Positions 3,610-30,144 of a DNA stretch of 53,315 nt are shown in pieces. The DNA lies in the IMG/VR virus record IMGVR_UViG_3300030519_000023, positions 1 through 53,315 of that record; one strand, 5' to 3'. Positions within the stretch are counted from its first letter, which is position 1, and the number at the start of each line of letters is the position of its first letter. The translations under genes were made by a program, and so were the position numbers. This DNA is from a virus. The notes beneath the pieces were generated by a model that searched no databases, was not told the origin of the DNA, and saw only the letters and a program-made list of their open reading frames with translations.

Positions 3610-3646
3610 GGGTGCCTCGGAAGGTTCACGGGTTTGGACAGGTGCG

Positions 3647-3979
3647 CTAGGTGCGCGGGGTGATGGAGAGGTCGATCCCAGACCGGCCCTCGTTGGGCGG
3701 GGCCTGGAGCAGCGGGAAGAACCACGCAAGGCGGCCGTGAGGCATGGCCTGGGGTGTGTAGGGGAACTCCGTCTGGTGGTTGAGCCACTTGACGCGCTTC
3801 CACATGGCCAGGGCCAGGACTTCAGGCGCCACAGCCTCATCCGTCCAGGGGATCGCCACCACATCCATGTCGTTGGCGAGGGAGCCGTGGATCGCCAGGG
3901 CATATCCGTTCTCTCGGGCCACCTCACACAGGCCAGCGTAAAGACCGGCGTAGGCGGGGGCGATGTTTGCGGTTTTCAT
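3647..3979 (-). CDS. nucleotidyltransferase-like small protein
   Basis: The product has 110 residues. The segment AIHGSLANDMDVVAIPW matches a minimal nucleotidyltransferase motif (G-S-x-x-x-D-x-D), followed by a conserved PHGRLAW block and an IDLS ending known from many small phage proteins. The family occurs widely in phage early regions but its reaction is not established. The start is the second of two ATGs, seven bases after AGGAG. It lies immediately upstream of the PAPS-reductase-like gene and is likely cotranscribed with it. Confidence 0.75.
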   Translation of the reverse strand: MKTANIAPAYAGLYAGLCEVARENGYALAIHGSLANDMDVVAIPWTDEAVAPEVLALAMWKRVKWLNHQTEFPYTPQAMPHGRLAWFFPLLQAPPNEGRSGIDLSITPRT

Positions 3980-8008: not shown

Positions 8009-11000
8009 CTATGCCGCTGCCGGATTCGCTTGCCCTGCCCTGGCCCGAACTGCCTTCAGGTCCCCGGCCAGCCCGGAGTCATCCTGGAAGCCATTGGGAT
8101 CCTGGAAAATCTCGCCCAGGACGCCCTTGCGCTTGATGCGCTCCATGTTGTTCTTCTCCCATGGGTGATCAGCCTGGAGAGTGATGCTCTCGACGTTGTC
8201 CTTCTGCCCCAGGCGCCAGATGCGGGCCGTCCGCTGGTTGTGGACCATGGCCGTCGACGGGATGTCGTGGTGGATGATGCACTTCCCATGCTGGAGATTC
8301 AGCCCGGTGGCGCCGGCATCGCTCATGACGATCACGTCGGCCTGTCCGCTGTCGAACCGGGCCGCCTTCGCCGCCTTGTCCTTGGAACTGTCCTTGCCGG
8401 TGAGACTGGTGGCTTTGATCCCAGCTTTCTCCATGGCCGCCTGAATCGACGCGACGGCCTCCAGGTTGTGGCTAAAAATGACGACCGGCTTTCCCTCGGC
8501 GATGCGCTCCTTGGCGATGCGAACATGCTCCGCCATCTTGCCGCCCTCGGGATCCAAGTTGATGATCCGGTTCATAGCCGATTCACGCATGGTCCCGACG
8601 GCTTTTCGCACCTTCTCGGCGATGGCCTGGTGGTCGGCCTCGGGCTTCCCGTCGAAGGACTTGGGTGCCAGCATCTTGGCCCATTTCACGGTGTCGGGGG
8701 CCCCGGTGCGGAGTTTCCCGCTGGCCAGCTCCACCTGGTCCACGGCCTGGTGCTGCTTGTCGGTAAGGGCGACCGACGGATTGGACTTGTAGCATTCCTT
8801 CCCTGGGTCGACGCGGCCGTTGAACCAGTACCGGGCCAGTTCCTGAGCCATGGACTTCTTTGCCAGGGGCGCGTCGTTCTTGTATCGCCGCATGAATTCG
8901 TCCTTCGACTCGGGCGGATACTTGTGAGGGTCGATCTTGTTCAGGTTTGACCAGACCTCCGACACGTCGTTTTTGAGGGGGTCGCCCGTGGCCATTACGA
9001 CATGCTCAGAGTTGTAGGAGTGGGCATCCAGCACCTTGCTCCAGGTGGAATCCTCCTTTCCATCCCGGTCCAGGGCGCCGTGGGCCTCGTCCACCATCAT
9101 GGCGTTGAAGTCGATCCCAGCCTTGATGAACGCTTCCTTGACGGATGCAGCGGCGTCCTTGGGGGATGCCGAATGCAGAAATTCCCTGGCACCCTCGGGC
9201 CCGCTGCCCAGGTGGTCGCCCAGGATCTTTAGGGTATCGTCCCGAAGGGTCTGGTGGGTCACGACGACCGCCTGCTGGTCGGGGTCGCGGTAGGCGGCCA
9301 GCCTCTCGTCGTAGCTCTCGCCCGGGGCGGCATGGACATGAAAGCCGCTGGATGGGTCGATGAACCGGATGGCTTCGGCGCCGAACTGGGCCTGGACGAC
9401 CGACGGGACGGCGATGATGCCCTTCTTGAGCTTCCCCTGCTGGTGAAGGGTCGTGAGGCTGCCCAGCATGATCGGGGTCTTGCCGCTGCCGGCGCCATAG
9501 AAAAGCCCCATCCGTTTGAGCTGGGTGATCGCCTTGACGGCCCTCTGCTGCTGGACGTATTTCCCGCTCATGTGGAGCCCGTCCTGGACGTTCACTGACC
9601 CCTTTCGCCCAGCAAAGGGCGCCGACGCGGCCGGCATGAGCCCCCGGATTTGGTTCTCCAGGGCAGTCCCAAGGTGGTAGCGTTCCCCGGGCGCCAGCTC
9701 GGGCTTCTCCCATGCGGCAGCCGGCGCCTCCTCTCTCCCGGGCTCCGGCTCCTCGGTTTCGTTCAAGTTGAATAGGGCCCCGTCCTGGACCTTTGCTAGG
9801 GCCTGGGCTGCCTTCGCCTCCTTGAGCTTGTCTCCGACCTTCCCCGCCCCGAACTGGCCGCCGCCCTTCTTCTGGAGCTTCGCCTGTTGGGACTTGCGAT
9901 CTGCGGCCAGGGCCTCGGCCTCCTTGTCTCCCAAGGTCATCTGGAGGTGCGCCTGGGCCCCGGAAATGTCGGCCGTCGCCATCTGGAGCTTCTGGCCGGT
10001 CAGGTGGTGGTAGTGGTCGTGGAAGGCTTCATTGAGCTGCCCCCGCATCACGTCCTGGATGGCGCCCTGGGCGAACTTGGTCCCACCCATCCGCTGGATG
10101 TAGCTGTCCCAAAGGGTCGGCTTGGTGGCGTCCTCGTGATATTCGGATTCGAGCTGCTGCCGCTTGTTGTTCCACTCCACCCATTTGTCCGACGCGGCTC
10201 CCTCAGCGTCGGCCGCGTCGTCGTCGCTCATGCCGGCGAATAGATTCATGGACTGGACTTCGGCGTTGGTCTTCTCGGGCTCGGGGCCCAGGTTGCCGAT
10301 GGCCTGGTCGAATTTCCACTTCTTGGCGTCGTCGCTGTTCGCCTTGCCGCCGAAGTGTTCCTTGTAGAAGAAGTCCCGGATGGCCGACGCGTGTTCGTGG
10401 GTCAGTTCGCCCTGGGGGATATAGGCGGCGGCCAGCCGGGGATCCTTGGCCAGTGCCCGGTGAAGTGCCTCATGGAAGTTTCCATCGTCCTGCACCCGCT
10501 GGCCCTGGAGGGTCGTTCCTGCCTCATTGGGGTTCGCGGCCATGTAGCCCTGCATCATGGGATCCAAGTCGGCTGCGATCTCGTGGGGGGCCCGGACGCG
10601 GGTCTTGAGCATGGGCTTCCCGTTGATCTCTATGGGCTTCCCGGTCTCCTTGTCCTTTTCCTGAATGGGCTGGCTCTTGGCGTCCTTTTCCACGACCCGC
10701 AGGGGGACCATCTCGTTCATGGCTGCGTCCCAATGAGCCTGAGCTTCCGGGGAGAGGTCCAGCTTGGCCCCGCCATAGACGCTGGCAACGATGTCCTCGG
10801 GTCGTTCCCCGTCGGCCAGCCGTGAGCCCATCCATGCCTGGAGCTTCCCCTTCACCGCCTCAGCGTCGTCTCCGTCCTGGATATCGTGGTGCCGCTGGAA
10901 TTCGGCGGGCTCCATTTCGGGGTTGGAATACCGGTCGGCCAGCCGATTGGCGAACCCAGCCGGGATCCAGTTGTCCTCATCCTGCTGGCCACCCTTGAGA

Positions 11001-13483
11001 GACAAGGCCACCTCCCTCTCGCCCAGGGCCGCGCAATCCACCGGCTTGACCATGGCGTCCATAGCTGCGCCCTGGGCGGTGATGACGGCCTCCCCGTCCT
11101 CGTGGCTGATCTGGTAGCTTCCCTCGGGCATCCCAAGGGCGGCTGCCGTCATGACTGCCTTCTCAGGGGTCATCTTGCCCAGAGGGATCTGGTACTCGTT
11201 CAGAGGGGTGGAGTGGAGGGCGGCGATCAGGGCAGCTCTCGCTTCCAGTCGCCCCAGGGCCCCGCCCAGGACCCGACGCGCCTCTTTCAGGGCCTCCACC
11301 TTATTCTTCTGGATCTCTACAGCGGCCGGGATGTCGTGAGCTACTTCCAGGAGTTCCTGGTCACATTGGGCAGCCTTGGCCCGGAGAGCCTGGGCGTCCT
11401 CGGTCACCTGGGGAAGCAAGGTCTCCTGCTCTTGGAGGTGGTGGTGCTCCAGAGCCTCCAGGACGGCTTGCTGGTCCTCGGGGCTGAAGTTCTGCCGAAG
11501 GGCACGGGCGACGACGTGGGCAGCCCCCTCGGGCCCCAGGCACTCAACAACGTCCCGGTCGATCATTCCCTGGCCCAGGGCCGCCAGGCCGACATCGTGC
11601 AGAAGGTCAAAGGCGCCGGCTCCCCGGCTCTGGTGCATTCCCTCCATTTCGCCGGTCTTGAACGGGTCGATGTCGCTCCCCTCGGGGAATCTCTCGCCCA
11701 CCTCCTCCAGGAATCCCTGGACGTGCTGGGTCAGGAGCTGCTCGTGCAGGGACTGGACCAGGGCTTCGTGTTCCTCGGGGGTGCCGACGGCCATCTGGAA
11801 CCCCGGCTCGAAGGTGATCCCCTTCTTGGCTGCCATCTGCTGTTTGTAGGTCGCCCGGAGTGCCTGGCGGGCCCGCAGGAGGTGGGCCAGGGTCTCATTG
11901 GACTCCAGGGATTCCTTCACGGCGTCACGCATGGCGGCGGCCTTCTGTGCCTGGAGGTCTTTAGTCGCCTTGTGAATCTGGATGTTCGCGGCCTGTTCCT
12001 CCGGGCTCTTGGGGCCCGTAGCCTCCTTGGGCGCCTTGCCTTCGGCAGCTTGAATCTCGTTCACGGCAGCCATCAGCTTTTCGCTGGTCATGCCGGCCTT
12101 CTCTGCCCGCTCGGCCAGCTTCTGGTTGTAGCCGGGCCCGGACTTGCCCTGGGTTTCCGAGAGGATGGCGTCCAGGTCCATAGGGGAATCCCCGCCGACC
12201 AAGTTGATCCCGCTGGCTCCCCGGGCCTCGGCGTCCAAGAGAACCTTCTTCTCTGCCTCGGCGACGATCTTCTTGGCCTCGGCCAGCCGGGCCCGGTGCG
12301 CCTCCTTGGCAACCTTGGGGTCGTCCTCGCCCTTGAACAGATCCTCATGGTCGCCGCCCTGGCCACCTGTGGCGGTTCCCAGGACGTCGTTGATGAACTT
12401 GTCCTCGGCCTGCTTGCGCTCCGCCCGAGCCCCGTCAGAGACCTCCCGCTCCTTGGCGAGGTCATCGGGTGACAGGCTGGCCTTCCGCTTCGCCTCGGCC
12501 TCGCGGCGGCCCTTGGCGTTGGCCCTGGACTCCTCCTTGTATTGTGCCGGGTTCTTCAGGCCATGCAGTCGGAGCCCATTCAGTTTTCCCTGGGCGCCAC
12601 CGATGACGCGGGCAGCGCCGTTGCTACCCTGGATCGGCTGGATGAGGAGAGGGTGGCCCTTGGAACCGGGCCCGTCGGGGTGCGCGGTAATCCAGTGGGC
12701 CCCGGCGGGGATGGGGTCTCCGCCCTTGACGATGGTGCGCCAGCCGTCACGCCGTCGCTGGTCCTCGGCGCAATGACAGCAGTTGAGCCCGTCGCCTTGG
12801 TAGTCCGGTGGCTTCGGGCCACCGCACCGGGCCTTGCAACCATCCGGCCTCGGGAAAATCCAGCCGTGCCCAGAATTAGGCATGTCGGGGTCCCAAAGCT
12901 GTAAGCCCTCTGCTTCGCTCTTGGCGATGGTCCGGGTGGCGTTCTCATCTGCCAGCCAGTCCTTGAAGTCGTCGATGGTGTGGGCGGCGATGGAGTGGAA
13001 GCCGTCCCAGCCCTTGCTGTAGTTGGCGAAGTAGGCAGCCTTGGCCTCCGCCTCGGTGTCCCATCCGATCATGACCTTGTGTTCATCGAATTCGCCAGAG
13101 AGCGGATCCACCTGATTGACGATGAAGACCGACTGGCTCTCCGGGTTGGGCCCGACAAAGCAATCCACCCCGTCCCCGTCTGCCCCGAAGGACCGCTTGC
13201 AAAATCCATAATGGTTGGCCATCTTGACCGACCACTTCGTCCCGCAGGAGTCAACCCCGCTTCGGATACTCCCGACGGGATTCTCAATGGCGATGGGGAT
13301 CCCCTGGACGACGATGTGCCCGCGCCGGCCGCCCTCCCGTGGCTCGGCCTTCCCTGCCTGTCGATCCAGATCTGGGGTGGTCAAGGGCTTGATCTTCAGG
13401 GCGATAGTGGGGGTCCAGCCGACGGGAATCAGCCACCCGGTTTCCCCGGATTCGTTATCGGTAAAGGGGATTCCGGCGTTCAT
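8009..13483 (-). CDS. giant polyvalent protein: pyrophosphatase-like domain plus SNF2 helicase
   Basis: This 1824-residue protein has an N-terminal inorganic-pyrophosphatase-like domain (about residues 55-180: ENPVGS, HYGF, DGDGVDCFVG, EHKVMIG), a domain known from phage polyvalent proteins. A Cys-rich patch and a W-I-T-A-H-P-D-G-P segment follow near residues 205-300, then a long Glu/Ala/Gln-rich helical middle. The C-terminus is a SNF2-type ATPase: Walker A GAGSGKT near 1333, DEAH near 1464, ATGDPLKND, ATGLNLQ, and QRTARIWRLGQ near 1755. Such proteins are thought to travel into the cell with phage DNA and protect or remodel it. The start ATG follows GAGG and is preceded by a 40-residue frame. 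Delivery is inferred. Confidence 0.85.
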   Translation of the reverse strand: MNAGIPFTDNESGETGWLIPVGWTPTIALKIKPLTTPDLDRQAGKAEPREGGRRGHIVVQGIPIAIENPVGSIRSGVDSCGTKWSVKMANHYGFCKRSFGADGDGVDCFVGPNPESQSVFIVNQVDPLSGEFDEHKVMIGWDTEAEAKAAYFANYSKGWDGFHSIAAHTIDDFKDWLADENATRTIAKSEAEGLQLWDPDMPNSGHGWIFPRPDGCKARCGGPKPPDYQGDGLNCCHCAEDQRRRDGWRTIVKGGDPIPAGAHWITAHPDGPGSKGHPLLIQPIQGSNGAARVIGGAQGKLNGLRLHGLKNPAQYKEESRANAKGRREAEAKRKASLSPDDLAKEREVSDGARAERKQAEDKFINDVLGTATGGQGGDHEDLFKGEDDPKVAKEAHRARLAEAKKIVAEAEKKVLLDAEARGASGINLVGGDSPMDLDAILSETQGKSGPGYNQKLAERAEKAGMTSEKLMAAVNEIQAAEGKAPKEATGPKSPEEQAANIQIHKATKDLQAQKAAAMRDAVKESLESNETLAHLLRARQALRATYKQQMAAKKGITFEPGFQMAVGTPEEHEALVQSLHEQLLTQHVQGFLEEVGERFPEGSDIDPFKTGEMEGMHQSRGAGAFDLLHDVGLAALGQGMIDRDVVECLGPEGAAHVVARALRQNFSPEDQQAVLEALEHHHLQEQETLLPQVTEDAQALRAKAAQCDQELLEVAHDIPAAVEIQKNKVEALKEARRVLGGALGRLEARAALIAALHSTPLNEYQIPLGKMTPEKAVMTAAALGMPEGSYQISHEDGEAVITAQGAAMDAMVKPVDCAALGEREVALSLKGGQQDEDNWIPAGFANRLADRYSNPEMEPAEFQRHHDIQDGDDAEAVKGKLQAWMGSRLADGERPEDIVASVYGGAKLDLSPEAQAHWDAAMNEMVPLRVVEKDAKSQPIQEKDKETGKPIEINGKPMLKTRVRAPHEIAADLDPMMQGYMAANPNEAGTTLQGQRVQDDGNFHEALHRALAKDPRLAAAYIPQGELTHEHASAIRDFFYKEHFGGKANSDDAKKWKFDQAIGNLGPEPEKTNAEVQSMNLFAGMSDDDAADAEGAASDKWVEWNNKRQQLESEYHEDATKPTLWDSYIQRMGGTKFAQGAIQDVMRGQLNEAFHDHYHHLTGQKLQMATADISGAQAHLQMTLGDKEAEALAADRKSQQAKLQKKGGGQFGAGKVGDKLKEAKAAQALAKVQDGALFNLNETEEPEPGREEAPAAAWEKPELAPGERYHLGTALENQIRGLMPAASAPFAGRKGSVNVQDGLHMSGKYVQQQRAVKAITQLKRMGLFYGAGSGKTPIMLGSLTTLHQQGKLKKGIIAVPSVVQAQFGAEAIRFIDPSSGFHVHAAPGESYDERLAAYRDPDQQAVVVTHQTLRDDTLKILGDHLGSGPEGAREFLHSASPKDAAASVKEAFIKAGIDFNAMMVDEAHGALDRDGKEDSTWSKVLDAHSYNSEHVVMATGDPLKNDVSEVWSNLNKIDPHKYPPESKDEFMRRYKNDAPLAKKSMAQELARYWFNGRVDPGKECYKSNPSVALTDKQHQAVDQVELASGKLRTGAPDTVKWAKMLAPKSFDGKPEADHQAIAEKVRKAVGTMRESAMNRIINLDPEGGKMAEHVRIAKERIAEGKPVVIFSHNLEAVASIQAAMEKAGIKATSLTGKDSSKDKAAKAARFDSGQADVIVMSDAGATGLNLQHGKCIIHHDIPSTAMVHNQRTARIWRLGQKDNVESITLQADHPWEKNNMERIKRKGVLGEIFQDPNGFQDDSGLAGDLKAVRARAGQANPAAA

Positions 13484-13490
13484 GGGTGCC

Positions 13491-13613
13491 TCAAAATTCG
13501 ACTTGCAATCCTGCTTGGACGGGGGCATATTTCTGGAGTGCAACAGGGGGGCGGAATATAGCCGGACCAATCCCCAAGTAGGCCCGTCCGAGGCTACCCC
13601 TTTGGCGGGCCAT
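13491..13613 (-). CDS. 40-residue coupled small protein
   Basis: An ATG overlapping the stop of the 215-residue gene (TGATG), with GAGG seven bases upstream, opens a 40-residue frame (MARQRGSLGRAYLGIGPAIF...). It ends two bases before the binding-site core of the giant gene. It fills the gap exactly, so it is plausible, though the small size leaves doubt. It is basic and hydrophobic. Function is unknown. Confidence 0.45.
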   Translation of the reverse strand: MARQRGSLGRAYLGIGPAIFRPPVALQKYAPVQAGLQVEF

Positions 13614-15927: not shown

Positions 15928-17043
15928 TCAAAAATCCATGTCTTGCCAGAATCCAGTGGGTTCCTCGGGGGCGCCCTTGGGGGCCTTCGGCGGCGGGACG
16001 TATTTTGGAACCGGCCGAGGCCCAGCTCCCAGAGCCTCAGCCAGCCCGTGGTCGGTGGCCATGTTGAGGTAGTGGTAGAGGAGAGACCGGGGCACCAGGG
16101 AGACCGCCTGGCTCTCCCAACCGCAATCCGTTGGGGTTCCCCCGACGCGCCTGGCCGTGTAGTACCTGGCCGTCGTGGTGGTCCTCTGGACATCCTCCAA
16201 GAACCCGGTGATCTCCGCCTTCAGTCCGCACTCCTCGAATGCCTCCCGGATCGCGGTGGCCTGGAGGGCGTCGTCCCCGTCGACGTGGCCCTTGGGGAAC
16301 GAGCCCCGGTAGCCTCCGAACTGGTTGGTGGGATGGATAACCCAGACCCGGCCGTCGGGCTCCTCGATCACCAGCCCGGCGGCCGGCGCCTTCCCCTCGG
16401 GGAGGGGGGGCTCCTGAATGGTCGGGTCCTGGCCCTCAACCTCCATCCAGTCCTCGTCCGTCGTCGGGTGGTCGGCCCAGGGCGCCATGGCGACCCCGTT
16501 TAGGGACGCGGGGGCCTTCCCGCCCGGGATCCAGGTTGCGACGGCACTGGGGTCCTCCCAGGTGTCCGCCCCGGTGGCCTTGGACGGATCCTTGATATAG
16601 GCGTCATTCCCCTTCTCGTCCAGCTTGGGGTGCTTCTTGGCCCCAGGGTTGTGCTTGAGGAAATAGGCCAGTTGTTCCTCGGGGGTGTATTTCGGCTTCT
16701 CCGGGGCTCCTTCCGGCTTCGCCCAGGACCACTTCCCGGACGGGGCCTGGCCGGCGGAGTGCGAGGGGGCCTGGCCGGTCTTGCCGGGGATCTTGAACGG
16801 GGCCGACGTGACCGGCTTCGATGCCTGGGTGCCGAAGTGGTTGTTCTTCCACGGCTGGTAGCCGATCTTGTCGTCCGGGTTGACGTGCTTTGGCGGCGGG
16901 GCCGGCGCCATGTTGACCGGCTTCAGGTTCTTGGGGGCGGCTTTGGATGGCGGGGCCTGGGCGGCGGCCCGGGAGTCCTCATGCTCGGGGATCCAGACCC
17001 GCTTGCCGTTGAATTCGCGGAAGAAACCCTTGATCTCCCTCAT
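15928..17043 (-). CDS. Nudix hydrolase with N-terminal cargo tag
   Basis: This 371-residue protein starts MREIKGFFREFNGKRVWIPE, a version of the F/Y-R-x-x-N-G-K-x-V tag found on neighbouring proteins. A Pro/Lys-rich linker of about 200 residues follows, then a Nudix domain near residues 215-330. The Nudix box reads G-x5-D-x7-REAFEECGL, with Asp where the first Glu is usual. Nudix enzymes hydrolyse nucleoside diphosphates linked to another group, for example ADP-ribose, NADH or RNA caps; which one is unknown. Its operon partner is an ADP-ribosyltransferase-like protein, so ADP-ribose or NAD is a reasonable guess. The ATG overlaps the upstream stop (TAATG) after GGGGAGGGG. Confidence 0.82.
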   Translation of the reverse strand: MREIKGFFREFNGKRVWIPEHEDSRAAAQAPPSKAAPKNLKPVNMAPAPPPKHVNPDDKIGYQPWKNNHFGTQASKPVTSAPFKIPGKTGQAPSHSAGQAPSGKWSWAKPEGAPEKPKYTPEEQLAYFLKHNPGAKKHPKLDEKGNDAYIKDPSKATGADTWEDPSAVATWIPGGKAPASLNGVAMAPWADHPTTDEDWMEVEGQDPTIQEPPLPEGKAPAAGLVIEEPDGRVWVIHPTNQFGGYRGSFPKGHVDGDDALQATAIREAFEECGLKAEITGFLEDVQRTTTTARYYTARRVGGTPTDCGWESQAVSLVPRSLLYHYLNMATDHGLAEALGAGPRPVPKYVPPPKAPKGAPEEPTGFWQDMDF

Positions 17044-17504
17044 TACCCCTCCCCGGTCAGAAGGAATTTGATGGCACTCTTGACGGCCCGCTGGAGCATG
17101 AAGCCAACCCATTCCGGGTCCTCGTCTCCACCATGGAGATCATTCGCCGACTTCACGACCTGGGTAGCCAAGAACAGGAAGAATGCCTGGCCCGGATCCT
17201 GACTGGGTTCCTCGAATTTGACCGACCGCTGGGCCCTTACGTGAGCCCCCAGACGGTCGGGAGTATTCCATTCGGTGGCGTAGAACGTTGGGTCCTTCCC
17301 CATGAAGGCGTCACCCAAGACCGTAGCCTTCAAGCGAATGGCAGCCATGGCATCGTCCCTGGTTGCCACTCCTTTCCCGAAGGAGTCGTAATCCTTTAGG
17401 ACATCGGCCACGAATTTCTGAACGATGGCGCCCACGTCGCCCAGGTCATTGAGGGCAACCTTCCCTTTTGGCTGGTGGTCGAAGTTCAGCGAGTTTCCGA
17501 TCAT
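17043..17504 (-). CDS. cargo-block protein, 153 residues, unknown
   Basis: This mostly helical protein begins MIGNSLNFDHQPKGKVALNDLG, with AAAGGGG upstream and its ATG overlapping the stop of the 916-residue gene. The region YATEWNTPDRLGAHVRAQ and the C-terminal FMLQRAVKSAIKFLL helix are distinctive but not recognised. Tight coupling between the ADP-ribosyltransferase-like and Nudix genes suggests a shared job, such as chaperone, packaging partner or inhibitor of the large protein. This is inference from position. Confidence 0.7.
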   Translation of the reverse strand: MIGNSLNFDHQPKGKVALNDLGDVGAIVQKFVADVLKDYDSFGKGVATRDDAMAAIRLKATVLGDAFMGKDPTFYATEWNTPDRLGAHVRAQRSVKFEEPSQDPGQAFFLFLATQVVKSANDLHGGDEDPEWVGFMLQRAVKSAIKFLLTGEG

Positions 17505-20251
17505 ACCGTCACCCCTTTCTTAAACTGGTCAACGGAATCAACGAAGGTCGGGTCAGGAGGGAGCATGAGCAATTCGAGTTTCATCGTTTTCCCGTCAGAA
17601 GCCTTACCCTTGCTTAATATCATAAACCGCTGCCCGGGGAGGGTCGTGATCTCCTGTTCGCTGGACATGCTATGGGATCCGTAGGAATCCATGGCCTTGG
17701 CTCCTTCAGCATAGTGAATCTCCAGGAGGAGGTCGCTCCCGAAGTGCTTATGGCTGCCCCAGTCCTCGCCCTTGGAACAACACATAGAATCGGTATTCTG
17801 GAAAAGCAATCCCGGCTCCGCCTGTTGAAGCTGCTTGGCCATGGTAGAGGGAATGTCCATCCAGCGCCAGAGACGGGCCCCTTCGTGCTTCGGAATGGCG
17901 TATTCGTAGCTCTCTTTGATTGCCAATTTGATGTCAGTCCCGCCATAAGAAACGTCATTCCCTTTGAAGTGGTGATTAATCGAACCGGTGGATTGGACGT
18001 TGCTGATGTAGGACTTCAGGTTCTTCGGCATCTTCTCGTATTGGGAATAACCCAGTTTCGCCTCAGCCGGAGTAACGTTGCTTCCGGCGTTCTTGGGTCT
18101 GAAGTCTTCTGGGTTTGCCACGCTGCCAAGCAGCATGAAGTATCCGAGAACCTCGGAGCTATCAATGTTATCGGTGTTCTTACCGAACGGTTTGGATGGG
18201 AAGGCATCTGAAAGGCCAGAAACATCCTCTGCCTGAGCAAGGGAGTAGGTCTTCAGCTTCTCAGAACCAGGGTTTGCTACCACATCCATGTAGGCAACGA
18301 GACCGGACCAATACTGTTTGACATGAGTGCTGGGATGCTGTTCGATGGGGATCAGCTTGGATTCCCCAGTCCCCTTGTCGACTAGATGGACCTGTAAGTT
18401 CTTCAACCGAACCAGGTCCCCCTTCATGGCCGCCCGGTGGACCTCGGCGGCGGCCTCCTGATTCGCTTCGTTGACCTTTTGGGTTGCAGAAAGTCCCTTC
18501 CCTTGGCCGTTCCAGTCGAGGAAGTCGGGCGGCTTGGGAATCTGAGCTTTATCCACCGGGAGCCTCTTTGGGTCAGGCTTGGGGGGATGAGCGATAGCCT
18601 CGGCCTCCGGGAACTGCTTGGCGAGGTAGTTTTTCCGGGCGATCAGCTTGGCCGACAGGGCGGCCTTTTGGTTGTCGTCTCCGGGGCCAAAAAGCTGGAC
18701 TGCCTTGGCGATAACGTCGTCTGGCATTTCCAGTACCGGAACCATGCTCTGGTTCATCTCCTCCTGAGTCATGGAGCCGAAGACGGAGGCAGACTGGGGA
18801 TTCTTGACCGCATCCTTCAGTGTGTGGATCTCGGGGACAGTGTTCCCGAAAGCTGGCCCCTTCTGGCCGCCCTGTGCCCGGAAGTCCAGAGCCCCGCCGG
18901 GGTCGATCCGCACAGCCTTTCCGTCGGGACCGACCAGCAGGTTGTCATAACCCAGGCCGACCACATCCCAATTCGCCAGCCACGCGTCGGCGCCGAACCC
19001 TTCCTTGACCCCGGCTTTTGCCCCCAGAGCTTCCCCGTCGCCGACCTTTGCCAGGCCCTCTTGGAAAGCAGAGGCGATCCCAAGCTTTCCGTCCTTCTGG
19101 ACCAGCTTCACCTTGGGGGCACCGATGCCCATCAGGTCGTAGAACTTGGCGGCCAGCATTTCACTCTTGGCCTGATCCTCGCTCCCTGGGAACTTGATAT
19201 ACCACTTCTTGCCGAAGGCGTCCTCATACAGGCCACCCGGGTTCGATCCCTTCTGTGGGCCAATCTGCTTGAATGGGAACGCCTTGGGAAGCGGGGCTAC
19301 CTTGGGAACCACCGTGGCCGGTCCCTTCTTCTCGACCAGCTCCCACCGATGGTTAGCGTTCAGGACGTAGGTCTGCCCGTTCTCCAGCTTGGTATCGCCG
19401 ATCTTGGGCCCCGTCTGGTCGCCCATCCCCTTGAACTTGAAGGCATCCTTCCACGACTTCTTGCCCCACAAACCAGGGACCGCCGTGAAGGTCATATCCT
19501 TGCCGTCCGCCTTGAGCTTGATCCCGCCGTCGACGGCCGGGTTGTTGACGACAGAGTAGGTGTCGCCCCCGTACTCGAATTGCATTCCCTCTTTAACCTG
19601 GGAGAATGCGGGGTGCGACCCGATAGTCGGGGTCTTGTCCGCCTTGGGCTTGGTTGGAGCCTTCCCGACGGCCACCTGGGCTTCCAAGTGAGCCGCCAGG
19701 GCCAGGTATTCATCCTTGGGCACCAGGTAACTCTGCTGCTTCTTTTTGTATCCGGCTGGGTGCATTGCCGCAATGGCTTTGGCTACGGCCGCCTTCATCG
19801 GGGTGCCGTCGTCGTTCTTCTTGCTGACCATGAAGAACTTTCCGCTGGGCGTCGAGAGGTGGACGTAGAACCCGCCGAGGTTGGCAGAATGCCCCTTGCC
19901 GATGGCCTGGAGCTGATCCACAAGGCTGGGCTCGGCCGCCTGGGGCTCGGTCGTTGCTGGAACGGGATCCGGCTCCGGCTGCGCCTCGTCACCCCCAAAC
20001 ATCTTTTCAAAGTCCCGGTCCACGTCGAACGAAACGGCTCCATGCGGGGGGGCGGCTGCCTCTCGGGGGGGCTCGGTGCCCTTGGGTGCTATGGTGGTGG
20101 CACCGGGTTCCTTCGGCGACTCCTGGGCGTCGGGATACATCCTCGCAAAATCATCGTCCGTGGTTCCCTTGACCTCGTAATCCCGCCCCTTGACATGGAC
20201 GAGCTGGCCGTGGACGGTGCGGTAGAAGTCTTTCCCGTGATGGAGGGCCAT
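17501..20251 (-). CDS. cargo protein: kinase-like domain plus ADP-ribosyltransferase-like domain
   Basis: The protein has 916 residues. The tag GKDFYRTVHGQLVHV is at 6-20, then an acidic linker. A small module near 120-195 is followed by GDTKLENGQTYVLNANHRWE near 285-305. Residues about 335-470 look like an atypical kinase: YEDAFGKKWYIKF, an E in SEMLAAKFY, NWDVVGLGYDNLLV as catalytic loop and RIDPGG as metal motif. Residues about 730-895 resemble an R-S-E ADP-ribosyltransferase: R in LWRWMDIP near 797, DSMCCSKGED, and EQE in SSEQEITTLPGQRF near 868. Such enzymes move ADP-ribose from NAD to protein, often Arg. Family calls rest on motif reading only. It is coupled to the 153-residue gene. Confidence 0.75.
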   Translation of the reverse strand: MALHHGKDFYRTVHGQLVHVKGRDYEVKGTTDDDFARMYPDAQESPKEPGATTIAPKGTEPPREAAAPPHGAVSFDVDRDFEKMFGGDEAQPEPDPVPATTEPQAAEPSLVDQLQAIGKGHSANLGGFYVHLSTPSGKFFMVSKKNDDGTPMKAAVAKAIAAMHPAGYKKKQQSYLVPKDEYLALAAHLEAQVAVGKAPTKPKADKTPTIGSHPAFSQVKEGMQFEYGGDTYSVVNNPAVDGGIKLKADGKDMTFTAVPGLWGKKSWKDAFKFKGMGDQTGPKIGDTKLENGQTYVLNANHRWELVEKKGPATVVPKVAPLPKAFPFKQIGPQKGSNPGGLYEDAFGKKWYIKFPGSEDQAKSEMLAAKFYDLMGIGAPKVKLVQKDGKLGIASAFQEGLAKVGDGEALGAKAGVKEGFGADAWLANWDVVGLGYDNLLVGPDGKAVRIDPGGALDFRAQGGQKGPAFGNTVPEIHTLKDAVKNPQSASVFGSMTQEEMNQSMVPVLEMPDDVIAKAVQLFGPGDDNQKAALSAKLIARKNYLAKQFPEAEAIAHPPKPDPKRLPVDKAQIPKPPDFLDWNGQGKGLSATQKVNEANQEAAAEVHRAAMKGDLVRLKNLQVHLVDKGTGESKLIPIEQHPSTHVKQYWSGLVAYMDVVANPGSEKLKTYSLAQAEDVSGLSDAFPSKPFGKNTDNIDSSEVLGYFMLLGSVANPEDFRPKNAGSNVTPAEAKLGYSQYEKMPKNLKSYISNVQSTGSINHHFKGNDVSYGGTDIKLAIKESYEYAIPKHEGARLWRWMDIPSTMAKQLQQAEPGLLFQNTDSMCCSKGEDWGSHKHFGSDLLLEIHYAEGAKAMDSYGSHSMSSEQEITTLPGQRFMILSKGKASDGKTMKLELLMLPPDPTFVDSVDQFKKGVTV

Positions 20252-20254
20252 GGT

Positions 20255-22885
20255 CTACTCCATCTCTTTCAGTTTGGTCATGGCCTTTTTGGCGTAGCCG
20301 GCCCATTTCTGGCCGAAGTCGCCCCAGGACGGCCCTTCCTCGGATTTATTCGGGAGCCCCTGCTTTGCCTTGTGCCCGGCGACGAGCGCCAGGTGCTTGG
20401 CGTGTTGGACGTAGCTCTCCAGCTCTTTCTTGCTGGGGGTGTAGCCGGAGTCCTTGGTGATGGCGAGGTGGGTATCGCTCAATCCGTCCATGATGGGTTT
20501 GGTCGCGGCATCCCAGTCGTGTTCGTGCCACTTCTCCGAGGGAGGCTTCGGCATGAACGGATCGGGCTTGACTGCGACCTTCGGCGTCTGGCCAAGAGAA
20601 TCAGCCATCTTCCCGTGATATTCGGCCAGGGCGGCATGAGCCTTGGCGGCTGCGGTATGGCTGCTCTGGAGGTGCGCCGGCCCAGGCTTGATGGGGGTAT
20701 CGGTCAGGTTGAAGGAATTGCCAAGTTGGGCGTGATACACCCCAGCCTTCCCATGGGCTCCGGCCGCCTTCAGGTGTGATTCGGCATCTCCCATGTTCGC
20801 GGCATTGCCGGAGGCATACTGGGCAGCCTCGGAATAGGCGTGAGCATCACTGGCATGTCCGGTGGCCTCGGGGTGATGCGCCGTGATCTTTCCGGCGAGG
20901 TCCGAGATAGCATGGGCCAAGTCGCTGGCTCCGCCCGGGGTTGGATTATCTTTGAACCCGGCCCCGGCACCCTTCACGACGCCCCTGGCCTCCTGCACCT
21001 GGGGGTGGGCTTCTTCCCAGTCCAACACGTCGGTATCGGGCATGACCTGGGCGTTCTTGGTTCCCCACTCCTTGGCCGCCTTCTTGATGCTCTCGATGAC
21101 TGCGTTCCCAGAGACGCCCAGGTCTTTGGTGTGCATCTTGCCGTCGGCGAATTCATACCAGACCTTCCCGCCCGGATAGGAAAGGCCCGCCTGGAGGTGG
21201 TCCTTGGCGTTGAAGTAGATCCGATGCTTGGCTCCCTTGGTCCACTCCTTGCCGACCCCGGCCAGCTCGGCGACGGTGGGCATGGATCCCCCGCCCTGCT
21301 CCTCCGGGTGCTGCTCGATGGCCAGCTCCCAGTGGTGATTTTCGTTGAGGACGAACTGCTTCCCGTTCTCGGTCTTGGTATCGCCGACCTTCGGGCCGTC
21401 CTCGTCCGGGACCAGGGCGGCAGCATTGGCCGAATGCCAGCCCATTTGGTAGCCCTTCATGGCGTCGATGTTGCTCCCGACCGGGGCGCCAGGCTTGAGC
21501 TGGGAGTCCATGAAATCTTTGTTCTCGCTTGGGATCACAGAGAGCCCCTTGGCGTGAGCCTCCTGGCCCATCTCGTAGGCCGACTTGGGTTGGGCCGCAA
21601 GGTATGCGGCATCCCCGGCCGCATCCTCAACCTCGCCTTCGGCCTGTTCGATGGCGAATCCTACATGCTTTGCCTTGGCGGCAAGGTGCTGGGCGGCCTT
21701 CTCTTGGTGGTAGTCCTTCAGTTTCTGGCTGATCGGAAGGTCGGCGTCCAGGATGGCCTGGTGAGAATTGGCAGCCGCATCATGGGCAGCTACGGCCGCG
21801 CCATGCTCCGTGGAATTGTGCTTGGAACTCACGGCATGGAACGTGTCGGCTTCCTCGGATTGAGCCGAGGCCAGCCCCGCTCCCTTATGGTATTTGGCCA
21901 TCTGGTTGTGATAGGCGGCATTCGAGAAGTGTTCCTTCTGTGCGTCCCCTTCGCTACCAATCGCCACCTTGGCCTGAGCCACGGCGGCATCCTGATGGGC
22001 CTTTACGGCGGAATCGTGGGTCTGGACATCATCCGTCGGGGAATAGCTGTAGGCGTCGGCCTCCTCGCTGGCTTCCTTGGCTGCTAGGGCATCCTCGGAG
22101 ATGCCGGTCACCTTCACCGGCTCCGGCACGGGGGCCTCCTTGGGCACCTCTGCGCCATGGAGGACCGCCATGACCTTGGCCGCCACCTCGCCGCCGGCCG
22201 CGCCATGCCCGAAGAAGAAATGTGGAAAGGCCGAATCGTTCCCGTGGTGGACCGCTCCGCCCTGCTTGGGCTCCATGGTCTCGCCGGTCACCTTGTAGAT
22301 GGCCTCCTTGATGGCGTTGGCGTCGGCCTTGTTCGCCGCCCGGAGATACCAACCCTTGTTCTTGTTGACGCCCATGGCGGTGCGCTCCGCCAGGGACGCC
22401 ACCTTGGCCCCTTCGGGAGCATGGCCCTCGGTCCACTTCGTCTTGCCCTCGTGGACTGCGTAGTGGCCGACCTTCTTCCCCGCCTTGGCTGGGGGCTGGG
22501 CGGCATGAACCGCGTCATCGTAGGCTGCCACCGGGACCAGCTTGCCGTTGGACTCTCGGAAGGTGGCGTCATGGTGGGACTTGCCGATGGGCCTCTGTTC
22601 CAGGATCGTTCCGTTCGCCATGTGCTTCACTGGCCTGGTCGCCATGGTCGCGGCCAGGGGGCCCGACATGGCTCCCCCCATCGAACCGGCGCATTTGCAA
22701 ACCAGACTGGAGCCCTCGTCCGGGTCCATCCCGTCGTCCACGGCGTCATCGAACGCCTTCAGGAGGTCCCGGCCTTCGTCCACGTCCTCGGGCTTCCGGC
22801 AGAAGTTCTTGGGAAGGCATTTCGCCTTATAGTAGGCACCGGCTTTCATGGCCAGAGCATTGGCATGGTCCTTCTTGATGGCCAC
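20255..22885 (-). CDS. 876-residue His/Ala repeat cargo protein
   Basis: A GTG start with GGAGG four bases upstream. The N-terminus (residues 1-80) is helical with a Cys cluster (CLPKNFCRK, LVCKCAGS). A tag-like segment (HHDATFRESNGKLVPV) lies at 104-119, and a domain beginning ERTAMGVNKNKGWYLRA at 167 also occurs in the neighbouring 327-residue protein. Near 508 a GDTKTENGKQFVLNENHHWE module matches one in the 916-residue protein. Much of the rest is helical with many A-x-x-A-H-x-x-A-A repeats, suggesting a long rod or bundle. No enzyme motif is visible. A role as an internal virion or ejection protein is inferred. Confidence 0.75.
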   Translation of the reverse strand: MAIKKDHANALAMKAGAYYKAKCLPKNFCRKPEDVDEGRDLLKAFDDAVDDGMDPDEGSSLVCKCAGSMGGAMSGPLAATMATRPVKHMANGTILEQRPIGKSHHDATFRESNGKLVPVAAYDDAVHAAQPPAKAGKKVGHYAVHEGKTKWTEGHAPEGAKVASLAERTAMGVNKNKGWYLRAANKADANAIKEAIYKVTGETMEPKQGGAVHHGNDSAFPHFFFGHGAAGGEVAAKVMAVLHGAEVPKEAPVPEPVKVTGISEDALAAKEASEEADAYSYSPTDDVQTHDSAVKAHQDAAVAQAKVAIGSEGDAQKEHFSNAAYHNQMAKYHKGAGLASAQSEEADTFHAVSSKHNSTEHGAAVAAHDAAANSHQAILDADLPISQKLKDYHQEKAAQHLAAKAKHVGFAIEQAEGEVEDAAGDAAYLAAQPKSAYEMGQEAHAKGLSVIPSENKDFMDSQLKPGAPVGSNIDAMKGYQMGWHSANAAALVPDEDGPKVGDTKTENGKQFVLNENHHWELAIEQHPEEQGGGSMPTVAELAGVGKEWTKGAKHRIYFNAKDHLQAGLSYPGGKVWYEFADGKMHTKDLGVSGNAVIESIKKAAKEWGTKNAQVMPDTDVLDWEEAHPQVQEARGVVKGAGAGFKDNPTPGGASDLAHAISDLAGKITAHHPEATGHASDAHAYSEAAQYASGNAANMGDAESHLKAAGAHGKAGVYHAQLGNSFNLTDTPIKPGPAHLQSSHTAAAKAHAALAEYHGKMADSLGQTPKVAVKPDPFMPKPPSEKWHEHDWDAATKPIMDGLSDTHLAITKDSGYTPSKKELESYVQHAKHLALVAGHKAKQGLPNKSEEGPSWGDFGQKWAGYAKKAMTKLKEME

Positions 22886-25800: not shown

Positions 25801-27249
25801 ATGGACGTTCTTTCGATCCTCGGCCAGTTGGCCGAAACTTCCGCTGATCCCCGGATCCGCACCCTGGTCAAGTCCCTGACCTCCACCCAGGCGGGCGTGA
25901 ACCTCGCGGCCCTGACCGGCGGCGGCGCAACGCGGGTGGAAGCCCTGGAGCCGGAACTGGCGACCGCCACCGTCCAGAATCCCCACTTCGTGCTGTTCAA
26001 CCTCCTGTTCCCCAACCGACACACGAGCTGGAGCCTGATCGACCAGCAGGTTGTCCAGGACGGCATCGGCGGATACCCCGGCAGCGCGGTCTCCAACGAA
26101 ACCGGCTCCAACCTCAACCAGCGCAACGGCGCCTACCACCGGGTCATCACCGAGCTGAAGGTGCTGGCTGAATTCGGCGGCGTCACCGTTCCCACCGCCA
26201 TGCAGGGCGCCCTTCAGCAGGCGGCCGGCGCGGCTGACTTCAACTCGGCCGAGCAGGAAATCTTCTCCGCCCTGTCCCGGGTCCTCCAGACCGCCGAGTG
26301 GGAGCTGATTTTCGGCGACCCCACCATGAGCCCCCTGGAATTCCAGGGCATCATCCCCGGTCTCCTGGCCAACGCCCCCCAGAACGTGCTGAACCTGGGC
26401 GGAATCGCCCTGAACACCGGCAGTCAGGTCGCCCCCCTCGCGGCCCGCATCTCCGGCTTCGGCTCCTGGGGCTCCCCCGACGCCCTGATCGTTTCCCCGG
26501 CTTGCAAGGCGGACTTCGACGGCCACCTGGAAGCGGGATACCGGGTCAACCTGGATGCCAACGTTCCCAGCACCACCCTGGGCGCGATGGTCAAGTCCAT
26601 CAAGTATAACGGCCTGGGCATCGGCAACGGCGTCCTGGATCTCTACCCCCATGTGTTCCTGGACGAGAACATGCGGCAGCCGGTGGAGAACTTCGCCGCG
26701 ACTGAAATCTCCGGCAACGCCCCGGCCTCCATGACCGGTGTCGCCTCCGGCGCGACCGGCTCCATCCCCGCCGGCACCTATGCCTACCGGGTGGAAGCCG
26801 CCGGTCCCGGCTTCGTGTCGTCCTCGGTCCTCGTGACTGGCTCGACCGTCGTCGTCGCCGCGACCAACCAGGTGGCCCTGACCATCACCCAGTCCTCGGG
26901 TGCGGCCGAGAGCTACTACAACGTCTACCGCTCCAGCAAGAACGGCAGCACCGCTTCCAATATGTGCCGGTTCATCGGGCGCGTGGCCAAGACCGGCGCA
27001 ACCACCGTGTTCACCGACACCAACGCCACCATTCCCGGCACTTCCCAGGCCATCATGCTGACCTCGGCCCCGCAGTATGACGCTCTGCGTCTGGTGCAGA
27101 TGGCGCCCCCCAGCAAGATCCCCCTCGCCATGACCACCCTCCAGTATCAGTTCGCGGTCATGTATCTGGCTTGCCTCCGGCTCTCCCTGCCGAAGAAGCA
27201 TGCCCTGATCACCAACATCCTGCCCTCCAACGCCACCTGGCTGCCCTGA
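25801..27249 (+). CDS. major capsid protein with Ig-like insertion
   Basis: This 482-residue protein has AGGAG before the ATG and is followed by a strong terminator, as expected for the most abundant product. The N-terminal part and the segments HTSWSLIDQQVVQDGIGG, QTAEWELIFGDP and LIVSPACKADFDGHLE fit an HK97-fold capsid of the type with long N-arm strands. Residues about 308-413 form a separate Gly/Thr/Val-rich beta domain (IPAGTYAYRVEAAGPGF, YYNVYRSSKNG) like an Ig or fibronectin-type fold, probably exposed on the capsid surface. The chain then returns to the capsid core (QYDALRLVQMAPPSKIPLAM). Assignment rests on order, size and pattern. Confidence 0.75.
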   Translation: MDVLSILGQLAETSADPRIRTLVKSLTSTQAGVNLAALTGGGATRVEALEPELATATVQNPHFVLFNLLFPNRHTSWSLIDQQVVQDGIGGYPGSAVSNETGSNLNQRNGAYHRVITELKVLAEFGGVTVPTAMQGALQQAAGAADFNSAEQEIFSALSRVLQTAEWELIFGDPTMSPLEFQGIIPGLLANAPQNVLNLGGIALNTGSQVAPLAARISGFGSWGSPDALIVSPACKADFDGHLEAGYRVNLDANVPSTTLGAMVKSIKYNGLGIGNGVLDLYPHVFLDENMRQPVENFAATEISGNAPASMTGVASGATGSIPAGTYAYRVEAAGPGFVSSSVLVTGSTVVVAATNQVALTITQSSGAAESYYNVYRSSKNGSTASNMCRFIGRVAKTGATTVFTDTNATIPGTSQAIMLTSAPQYDALRLVQMAPPSKIPLAMTTLQYQFAVMYLACLRLSLPKKHALITNILPSNATWLP

Positions 27250-28593: not shown

Positions 28594-30135
28594 GTGGGTG
28601 CCTATCACGACGTAGCGTTTTATACCTTCGAGATTTGGGATTCAAACCTCATCGGACAGGCTTCGCAAGCGGATCTTGCGGACGCCTTCTCCCAATCCGT
28701 CACCCTTCGGCTGGCCCCCCAGGCGTTCACCGCTGAACAGGGGTTCAGGGCCGACTTCGGGATCGACCTCGCAGGCAACCCCGTGATCGTGGAAGCCGGG
28801 TTTGCCCCGGGCCGGTGGACCATGCGGGGCGTCTTTGGCGTCGGTCAACAAGGGTTGAGGGATTTGGCCTCCAATTATGACCAGGGGCTTATCACCTTCG
28901 GGCTCGATAATCGCCTTGCCCTTCGGGCTCTTTTTCAGAATTATGCCGACTCCAACGCTGCGCTTCTAGCCCAGCAAAAACCTCTTTTGAAGATGGTTTT
29001 CATGGCCCAGTCGGGCGGCCCTTCGGAATGGAAAAACGAGGTATGGTGGATCCTTCCGGTCGGGATGCCAACCGATGACCGGACGGCCTCCAAGCCCCTG
29101 GATTGGTCCTACTCCCTCACCTTCTGGGCCCTCCAGCGGGTGGATCAGGTAGTGGCCCTTTCGGACCAGCTCAATGGAATGTCGATCACCGGGCTCCTGG
29201 CCGCGATCAAGGCTATCACCGCCGAGATTCAAAGCATCCAGACCCTGATGAATATCAGCCAGTGGCCCATCGTCCAGACCATCCAGGGAATCATCACGGC
29301 GGTCCAGGGGGCGATCAATGCGGCCCAGAATCTCAGCGCCACCGTTTCGGCCGACACCCAGGGAGTCGCGGACCTCCTCCGCACCGCCGCCTTTGCGGTC
29401 TCCTCTCTGACCCAGACCGTCGTCAATGCCACGACGCTCCCCGTCCAGGCCAAGCAGGATCTCATCTGCGCCCTGACCAGCATGAGGATCGCCATCGGCG
29501 GGGCTCTCCTGCCCATCACCACCAATGGCGCCCTTACCATCGCCCCGACGCCCCCGTCCCCTGTCCCGGTCATCCCCGGGCGGGACCTCCGGCAGATTGC
29601 CGCCACCGTCCTCGGCGACGAGTCGGCATGGTCCACCATCGCTGCCCTGAACAACCTGGTCTACCCCTTCGTCTCCTGGCCGGCGCAAGGCGGCTCCCCA
29701 GCTCTTTCGAGCGGATTGGTCCCCGGTATCGTCGCGGCCCCCGGCGCCATCCTCTCGGTCCCCTCTGCCGCCCAGGCTGAAATCTTGGACCCGGTAGGGC
29801 TCGACCTGGACCCGGACGGTGGGGACTTTCTGGTTGGGAGCCTCCAGAACCTCGTCAATGCTCTCAATCGTCGGCTCAATACGCCCCTCGGCTACCTGCC
29901 CCAGCATCCCTCCTACGGCTCCTTGCTCTACGCCTACCTGGGCAAGGGCTTGACCGTGGACAACGCTCTGGCTATCCGGGGCGCCGTCGCCCAGACCCTG
30001 CTCCGCGACCCCCGCGTGACGGCGGTGACCCAGGTGACCGTGGCCTGTGATAGCACGACGGGGATTATCACCCCCACCGCAACCGTTCAAACCATCCTCG
30101 GCCCGGCCAGTTTCGCCGTGACCGGCGGTTCGTAA
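28594..30135 (+). CDS. baseplate protein: LysM plus gp25-like domains
   Basis: The product has 513 residues, starts at GTG with GGGAG upstream. The N-terminal 200 residues form a beta-rich tail domain. A helical coiled segment (residues about 200-270) follows. The region near 325-360 (GRDLRQIAATVLGDESAW, AALNNL) matches a LysM fold, which binds peptidoglycan or acts as a baseplate hub adapter. The last about 110 residues (ALNRRLNTPLGYLPQHPSYG, then an iterated-strand end) match the gp25/XkdS wedge type. The combination is compatible with a fused baseplate wedge and hub adapter. It is followed immediately by the baseplate J-like gene. Confidence 0.75.
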   Translation: MGAYHDVAFYTFEIWDSNLIGQASQADLADAFSQSVTLRLAPQAFTAEQGFRADFGIDLAGNPVIVEAGFAPGRWTMRGVFGVGQQGLRDLASNYDQGLITFGLDNRLALRALFQNYADSNAALLAQQKPLLKMVFMAQSGGPSEWKNEVWWILPVGMPTDDRTASKPLDWSYSLTFWALQRVDQVVALSDQLNGMSITGLLAAIKAITAEIQSIQTLMNISQWPIVQTIQGIITAVQGAINAAQNLSATVSADTQGVADLLRTAAFAVSSLTQTVVNATTLPVQAKQDLICALTSMRIAIGGALLPITTNGALTIAPTPPSPVPVIPGRDLRQIAATVLGDESAWSTIAALNNLVYPFVSWPAQGGSPALSSGLVPGIVAAPGAILSVPSAAQAEILDPVGLDLDPDGGDFLVGSLQNLVNALNRRLNTPLGYLPQHPSYGSLLYAYLGKGLTVDNALAIRGAVAQTLLRDPRVTAVTQVTVACDSTTGIITPTATVQTILGPASFAVTGGS

Positions 30136-30144
30136 GGTGACCCC

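Follow-up and report, generated by a model that had tools for sequence, protein, structure and literature searches.

A widespread phage protein architecture joining a predicted HipA/CtkA-like kinase to a predicted ADP-ribosyltransferase, with a conserved three-gene neighbourhood

The K-ART protein and its two predicted catalytic domains

The virus record IMGVR_UViG_3300030519_000023 of IMG/VR (53,315 bases; this whole stretch is referred to here as the window) encodes on its minus strand a 916 amino acid (aa) protein, designated here as K-ART, in which a predicted HipA/CtkA-like kinase (K) is joined to a predicted ADP-ribosyltransferase (ART) of the R-S-E type. From its N- to its C-terminus, the protein was found to consist of an N-terminal region, a motif of ~30 aa, the kinase-like domain, a linker and the ART domain. 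The K-ART gene is part of a compact gene run that encodes, in this order, an 876-aa protein, K-ART, a 153-aa protein and a NUDIX protein (Table 1). The stop codon of the K-ART gene overlaps the start codon of the 153-aa gene as ATGA, and the stop codon of the latter has one base in common with the likely NUDIX start.

The minus-strand frame is considered to be the real one because relatives match along it, i.e. the relative at locus L004 (67% identity across window residues 84-913) and phage records identified by tblastn. An opposite-strand open reading frame (ORF; 18437-20779, plus strand, 780 aa) was rejected as a mechanical reading frame only. The tblastn search with the window protein matched 19 of 50,697 phage records, and in seven of these the match extended past the kinase part: it reached residues 885-900, covering both domains, in Aeromonas ST4, Morganella Mecenats66 and Pseudomonas Dolphis, Jeremy and Touem01, and stopped at residue 749 in Enterobacter phiT5282EW and at residue 708 in Yersinia fHe-Yen8-01, both of which were positive for the ART profile. 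The kinase part alone was common to the window and 11 Gordonia records as well as DSL-LC01. Some of the seven records with a long match are annotated as 'ADP-ribosyltransferase', and a kinase is named in none of the annotation rows seen among the matched records. The window protein had no match in Pfam, PHROGs, NCBIfam (a scan of three kinase proteins) or PDB sequences.

An AlphaFold2 model of residues 321-916, based on 75 aligned sequences, was obtained with high confidence (predicted local distance difference test, pLDDT, 90.4; predicted template modelling score, pTM, 0.83). Structural comparison of residues 321-559 using VIA-align returned CtkA with a Z-score of 16.4 (214 aligned residues, root mean square deviation, rmsd, 3.7), followed by CotH (14.4), PI4KIIalpha (12.9), HipA (12.3) and LepB (11.8), and Foldseek matched the model to CtkA at 6.3e-5. 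The CtkA alignment spans model residues 1-239, including the C-terminal part. An earlier, sequence-only reading of the window had claimed spaced motifs of an atypical kinase at residues ~335-470 and had proposed structure prediction and structural searches of both domains as a check; the motifs were located at K353, N427-N437 and 448-455, the predicted folds were of the kinase type (321-559) and of the C3/VIP2 ART type (~714-906), and the atypical kinase assignment holds in the narrower form of a HipA/CtkA/PI4K-like type. In the model, K353 lies at the end of a strand and E364 in the helix that follows; D429 and N437 precede a pair of strands, directly behind which D450 is placed, in agreement with the layout of kinases. 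The residue order Lys-Glu-Asp-Asn-Asp is presumably also that of HipA, with which, as with CtkA, the fold is held in common. Unlike HipA, the K-ART kinase is part of a large phage protein and stays below the cut-off of the Pfam family HipA_C: relative L027 matched at 1.1e-5 and 25.7 bits, under the curated cut-off of 30.5, relative L013 at 14.2 bits, none of 15 kinase proteins scanned exceeded the cut-off, and no HipA_C match was obtained in the window's record.

Residues K353, E364, D429, N437, D450, G452 and G453 were conserved in 75/75 rows of alignment A3 and in 65/65 rows of alignment A4, which takes in distant family members; N427 and W428 were each present in 74 of the 75 A3 rows. Rows from the two large scans needed one of two peptide patterns holding N427, W428, D450, G452 and G453, of which the genome-scan pattern also holds D429, so that the counts for D450, G452 and G453 (and for D429 in the genome scan) are partly forced. 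This applies to the aspartate of the DPGG motif, D450, whose conservation in homologues had been named as a check and was observed in 75 of 75 rows. K353, E364, N437 and the ART residues are absent from both patterns; the pattern of the first scan, the source of L003 and L004, holds K353. The five catalytic residues K353, E364, D429, N437 and D450 were also conserved in 12/12 rows of alignment A1, ten of which were gathered by tblastn without peptide patterns, and all five were kept in the distant relative L158, found by tblastn in the same manner. In fold as well as in key residues, positions 321-559 thus match an atypical kinase of the HipA/CtkA/PI4K-like kind, whose activity is predicted.

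For residues ~714-906, VIA-align returned C3bot (Z-score 12.7, 179 aligned residues, rmsd 3.2), VIP2 (11.8) and iota Ia (11.7), with a Foldseek match of the model to C3bot at 6e-7. The segment preceding this domain was alignable from about residue 570 in eight ART-bearing proteins. The sequence-only reading had also proposed an R...S...E-Q-E signature: R796, S826 and E865-Q866-E867 are indeed present, but the expected S-T-S motif reads C-C-S. Among rows with the residue present, the EQE glutamates, whose conservation in homologues that reading had named as a check, were invariant (E865 in 39/39, E867 in 40/40), and S826 was conserved in 38/39; of 39 rows at position 824, 25 have C and 14 have S. 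Lysine takes the place of the first ART arginine in the K-ART relatives L047, L049, L057, L064, L074, L075 and L078. In relative L013, the Pfam family ADPrib_exo_Tox was matched at 1.5e-8. Residues ~714-906 therefore agree in fold, and in most of the motif residues, with a mono-ADP-ribosyltransferase of the R-S-E (C3/VIP2/Alt-like) type, again with predicted activity.

Upstream of the kinase domain, K-ART carries the ~30-aa motif (GPKxGDTK...YVLNxNHxWEL), which it has in common with the 876-aa neighbour. A related motif (GPKEGDTKQGADGMLVFKDGRWHK) was present in 42/49 K-ART ORFs versus 0/94 other kinase ORFs, and the ~30-aa motif may be a packaging signal.

Table 1. Positions in the window of the K-ART gene, its predicted domains and residues, and further genes
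Feature	Position	Strand	Basis
K-ART protein, 916 aa, ATG start, uninterrupted	17501-20251	-	ORF, relatives, model of residues 321-916
~30-aa motif (GPKIGDTKLENGQTYVLNANHRWEL) in K-ART	19325-19417	-	
Kinase-like domain, residues 321-559	18575-19291	-	VIA-align
K353 of KKWYIKF (348-354), predicted ATP-binding lysine ending a strand	19193-19195	-	
Predicted catalytic loop D429...N437 of NWDVVGLGYDN (N427-N437)	18941-18967	-	
D450 of IDPGG (RIDPGGAL, 448-455), predicted metal-binding aspartate	18902-18904	-	
Segment 560-713, mainly helical in the model, accompanies the ART	18113-18574	-	
ADP-ribosyltransferase domain, residues ~714-906	17534-18112	-	VIA-align, Foldseek
R796, first ART motif	17864-17866	-	
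C824-C825-S826, where the S-T-S motif is expected	17774-17782	-	
E865-Q866-E867, ExE of arginine-type ARTs	17651-17659	-	
153-aa partner protein, predicted helical, without known family	17043-17504	-	
NUDIX protein, likely ATG at 17043 (ORF listed 15928-17112)	15928-17043	-	Pfam NUDIX 6.9e-13
876-aa protein upstream of K-ART, same gene run, one copy of the ~30-aa motif	20255-22885	-	
Copy of the ~30-aa motif in the 876-aa neighbour	about 21308-21403	-	
Major head protein gene	25801-27249		
Baseplate genes, gp25-like and baseplate J protein	28594-31416		
Phosphoadenosine phosphosulfate reductase-like protein	2764-3927	-	phrog_424, 6e-31
1853-aa polyvalent-type protein, InPase domain and SNF2-type helicase	8009-13570	-	

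Spread of the kinase family and its gene neighbourhood

Using the A1 kinase alignment, a relative was found to be encoded by 404 of the 433 stretches matched in viruses and by 61 of the 81 matched in bacterial genomes. The viral loci analysed were the best 80 of the 404 by similarity to the window, and K-ART is consequently over-represented in the counts given here. At the loci analysed, family profiles identified 160 kinase ORFs, 59 of which also matched the ART profile, and no curated profile for the kinase domain was found in the family members scanned. The architectures of 142 ORFs were compared, after removal of the 11 loci that were also left out of the synteny count described below and of seven more; near-copies were recognised by visual inspection of lengths and scores. 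They comprised K-ART (52), K with an unassigned C-terminus (34), MuF-K with an unassigned C-terminus (16), K alone (10), NUDIX-K (8), MuF-K-ART (7), K-NUDIX (4) and 11 others including NUDIX-K-ART.

Pfam scans of regions flanking the kinase in the 160 ORFs covered 70 C-terminal parts without an ART-profile match (ten near-copy loci and tails of <60 aa excluded), which yielded ADPrib_exo_Tox (18), ART (7), HD (7) and NUDIX (4), and 111 N-terminal parts, which yielded Phage_Mu_F (32), NUDIX (8) and Phage_min_cap2 (3). A tree quickly inferred from 141 kinase domains required 16 changes for ART, 13 for MuF and seven for NUDIX, rough counts given that 51 of 138 inner branches were open; the kinase therefore seems to have swapped partners often. 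The sequence-only reading had regarded a fusion of this kind as unusual, a view that does not hold, as the K-ART fusion is widespread and lies in a three-gene neighbourhood that is conserved.

Among 75 family members, PHROG matches were obtained to phrog_802 (13) and phrog_26651 (7), both labelled 'Alt-like RNA polymerase ADP-ribosyltransferase', to head maturation protease (4), virion structural protein (3) and phrog_30632 (1). The earlier comparison with T4 Alt, an ART that enters the host with phage DNA, is borne out by these Alt-like matches and by relatives fused to phage head proteins. The possibility that the head maturation protease and virion structural PHROGs represent the kinase itself was rejected: in a test of 31 records, considering places inside kinase ORFs (three further places lie in another ORF of L091), an overlap with the kinase of >30 residues was seen in 0/16 cases for phrog_21789 and in 1/29 for phrog_595. 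These PHROGs therefore match head or ART parts that flank the kinase.

Several family members are found in other settings. Kinase domains with a C-terminal NUDIX domain are encoded in Pseudomonas genomes, including P. cerasi, P. tremae and P. syringae pv. cilantro (L114, L116, L121 and L135). On a Rhodobacter plasmid (L158, 3323-4720), the kinase domain is fused to a stretch with HCRGGLGRAG, presumably a Cys-phosphatase-like motif, and the gene is convergent to draG and draT (ADP-ribosylhydrolase and ART). A Streptomyces plasmid (L014, 1-6681) encodes the kinase domain at the C-terminus of a >2200-aa protein with a Gln_deamidase_2 match, i.e. at the place of a toxin tip. Structural matches in BFVD included proteins of the haloarchaeal tailed viruses HSTV-2 (L7TJZ0, named PI3K/PI4K catalytic domain) and HHTV-1 (R4T6E8).

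Synteny was assessed for the 45 K-ART ORFs that are followed by 2.5 kb or more of sequence, after 11 copies or near-copies had been dropped (L001, L002, L003, L015, L016, L018, L025, L032, L056, L072 and L084); the window, in which both partners are present, was left out together with its copies. The small protein was encoded next to K-ART in 40 cases, the NUDIX gene was present in 40, and both were present in 39. Among the six exceptions, both partners are missing from L065, L081, L107 (a near-copy of L081) and L113, L013 has NUDIX in the same ORF, and in L017 the small-protein frame begins beyond the set limits. Within those limits, the combination of small protein and NUDIX was found downstream of 0/66 other kinase ORFs, i.e. 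those not matched by the ART profile, a figure that concerns this ART lineage, since several of these ORFs are same-locus NUDIX-K proteins and others hold ARTs of other subfamilies.

The small proteins constitute one recognisable family (53 ORFs, copies included), with 14-59% identity to the window copy. The predicted structure is helical (pLDDT 91.2); it returned no PDB match better than E 0.48, and none of 38 members had a PHROG match. NUDIX relatives were identified in 64 ORFs, copies included, and at several loci the NUDIX gene contains its own copy of the kinase domain. On Pseudomonas juntendi plasmid p2463-1, a single NUDIX-kinase-ART protein is encoded between minor head protein and capsid genes. 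A NUDIX-box pattern matched one of 160 kinase ORFs and no neighbour, apparently because the first Glu of the box is absent from these proteins; NUDIX partners were accordingly assigned by homology. Elsewhere in the window, a phosphoadenosine phosphosulfate reductase-like protein is encoded, and the capsid, baseplate and tail genes suggest a tailed phage with a contractile tail.

A proposed role in host takeover and its alternatives

We favour, with a probability of about 0.65, the interpretation that K-ART serves host takeover as an effector that combines two enzymes and travels in the virion of a tailed, probably contractile-tailed, phage. Its packaging, substrates and activity are what we infer from sequences and models. 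K-ART would be packed in the phage head and would enter the host together with the DNA. Inside the host, the ART would place ADP-ribose on host proteins, probably on arginine as judged from the ExE motif, and the kinase would phosphorylate a protein of the host; a lipid, or the domains to which the kinase is fused, would be less likely substrates. The NUDIX enzyme may remove or trim ADP-ribose or NAD-derived products, and the small helical protein would act as a packaging or assembly partner rather than as an immunity protein.

Association with the phage head is suggested by several family members: a minor capsid protein is followed by K and ART within one architecture in L111 and L112, the kinase ORF itself matches phrog_595 ('head maturation protease') ahead of the kinase domain in 20/31 records, and one structural match in BFVD is named portal protein. 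In Yersinia phage fHe-Yen8-01, the homologues of K-ART, the small protein and the NUDIX protein are all annotated as particle-associated.

A number of observations weigh against this interpretation. The fHe-Yen8-01 label is also borne by the terminase and by DNA methyltransferases and may for that reason include contaminants, and the window protein has no Pfam match to MuF. For the ART, C-C-S is found in place of S-T-S in the window, and position 796 is Arg in 33 of 40 rows and Lys in the remaining seven. For the kinase, profile comparison of the family with Escherichia coli HipA using hhalign was weak (probability 2.2, E 0.022); K353 was aligned in it with the HipA lysine K181 (printed numbering), which we take to be the equivalent ATP-binding lysine. 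The kinase-family profile found no relative among PDB sequences, its best row, ribosomal protein L23 (E 0.22), being taken as a chance match. Proteins with a kinase fold may, moreover, be AMPylators, glutamylases or pseudokinases.

The most probable of the alternatives, although one to which we give far less weight than to the effector interpretation, is that the kinase fold is active, but in AMPylation, glutamylation or the phosphorylation of small molecules or lipids rather than of proteins. It is compatible with the rest of the effector interpretation, such activities are known among kinase folds, and PI4KIIalpha and LepB are among the structural neighbours; the top neighbours CtkA, CotH and HipA are, however, protein kinases, in part according to their entry titles. 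Somewhat less plausible is that the ART is the sole effector, with the kinase fold as a regulatory or assembly module that switches the ART on through ATP binding or self-phosphorylation, or that tethers effectors to the head, without acting on targets in the host. In most cases the kinase is preceded by a head or N-terminal part and followed by a variable C-terminus (ART, NUDIX, HD or unassigned), as such a module might be, but it also occurs at C-terminal ends (NUDIX-K in 8/142 ORFs, and the Streptomyces protein of L014, an ORF cut at its left end) and nearly alone (L058, 294 aa), which weakens a regulatory or anchoring role. The five catalytic residues, kept in all 65 rows including distant members (D429 and D450 partly by selection), likewise speak for more than a passive module.

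K-ART could also be a polymorphic toxin of temperate phages directed against rival bacteria, with the ~155-aa neighbour as its immunity protein, which we regard as unlikely. The small gene behind the ART at 40/45 loci resembles the immunity gene that usually comes after a polymorphic toxin gene according to the available part of PMC5576092. The wide divergence of the small proteins and the kinase domain that ends the long Streptomyces protein with a Gln_deamidase_2 match are in line with a toxin, but the small proteins constitute one recognisable family, a homologue is annotated as particle-associated, and among the carriers are several phage isolates of 86-95 kb. Slightly more doubtful still is a locking cassette, in which the ART would add ADP-ribose, the NUDIX enzyme would trim it to phosphoribose and so block host ADP-ribosylglycohydrolases, and the kinase would act on the modified targets or on ADP-ribose. 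The kinase might then, just as doubtfully, be tied to ADP-ribose chemistry, having joined ART and NUDIX partners repeatedly and in both orders. A chance resemblance, i.e. a structural phage protein without enzyme activity, would agree with the lack of database matches of the window protein but is very improbable in view of the high-confidence model, the two fold matches and the conserved catalytic residues.

Relation to known systems

Close parallels to the virion-carried effector that we propose include T4 Alt and the Alt/VIP2-type phage ARTs, which are of the same R-S-E type and are phage-borne; members of the present family match Alt-like PHROGs, and injection with the DNA is proposed for K-ART. 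To our knowledge, T4 Alt has no kinase domain and no neighbourhood of small protein and NUDIX such as that of K-ART. Pandoravirus dulcis S4VPE6, a 'Kinase VIP2 domain containing protein' (Foldseek row in BFVD at 5.8e-5), would, by its name, likewise unite kinase and VIP2-type ART on a single viral polypeptide.

MuF polymorphic toxins, described with ART toxins in the available part of PMC5576092, are head proteins with a C-terminal ART or other effector, and K-ART relatives include MuF-K-ART and Phage_min_cap2-K-ART proteins; these toxins carry MuF, unlike the K-ART of the window as judged by Pfam. The word 'kinase' is absent from the main text of PMC5576092, and its unnamed MuF-associated domain Ct_MAD might overlap the present kinase domain. 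Polyvalent proteins, as covered by the accessible part of PMC5512222, resemble K-ART in that several enzymes are carried per injected polypeptide, with ART and kinase both listed, and a polyvalent-type protein (InPase and SNF2 helicase) is encoded near K-ART in the window. In the polyvalent kinase family of PMC5512222, a His is conserved ahead of the catalytic Asp and the C-terminal subdomain is missing; its identity with the K-ART kinase was rejected, as N427-W428 precede D429 and the CtkA match includes the C-terminal part. Within the portions available, PMC9503650 reports frequent packaging of ARTs and Nudix enzymes, foremost in myoviruses, PMC3482391 lists a lantibiotic-type kinase toxin, and the word HipA is absent from the main text of PMC5512222, PMC9503650, PMC5576092 and PMC3482391.

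No description of this kinase family or of the three-gene cassette was found in the open-licence literature searched. Injected phage ARTs are already known, and what appears to be new here, as judged from sequence comparison, is the kinase family together with the cassette. If the proposed role is correct, a widespread HipA/CtkA-like kinase family with head proteins, ARTs and NUDIX enzymes as fusion partners would bring a second type of modification into the first minutes of infection. The cassette, carried for instance by Pseudomonas putida phage Dolphis, would offer a compact system for asking whether phages direct ADP-ribosylation and phosphorylation at the same host targets.

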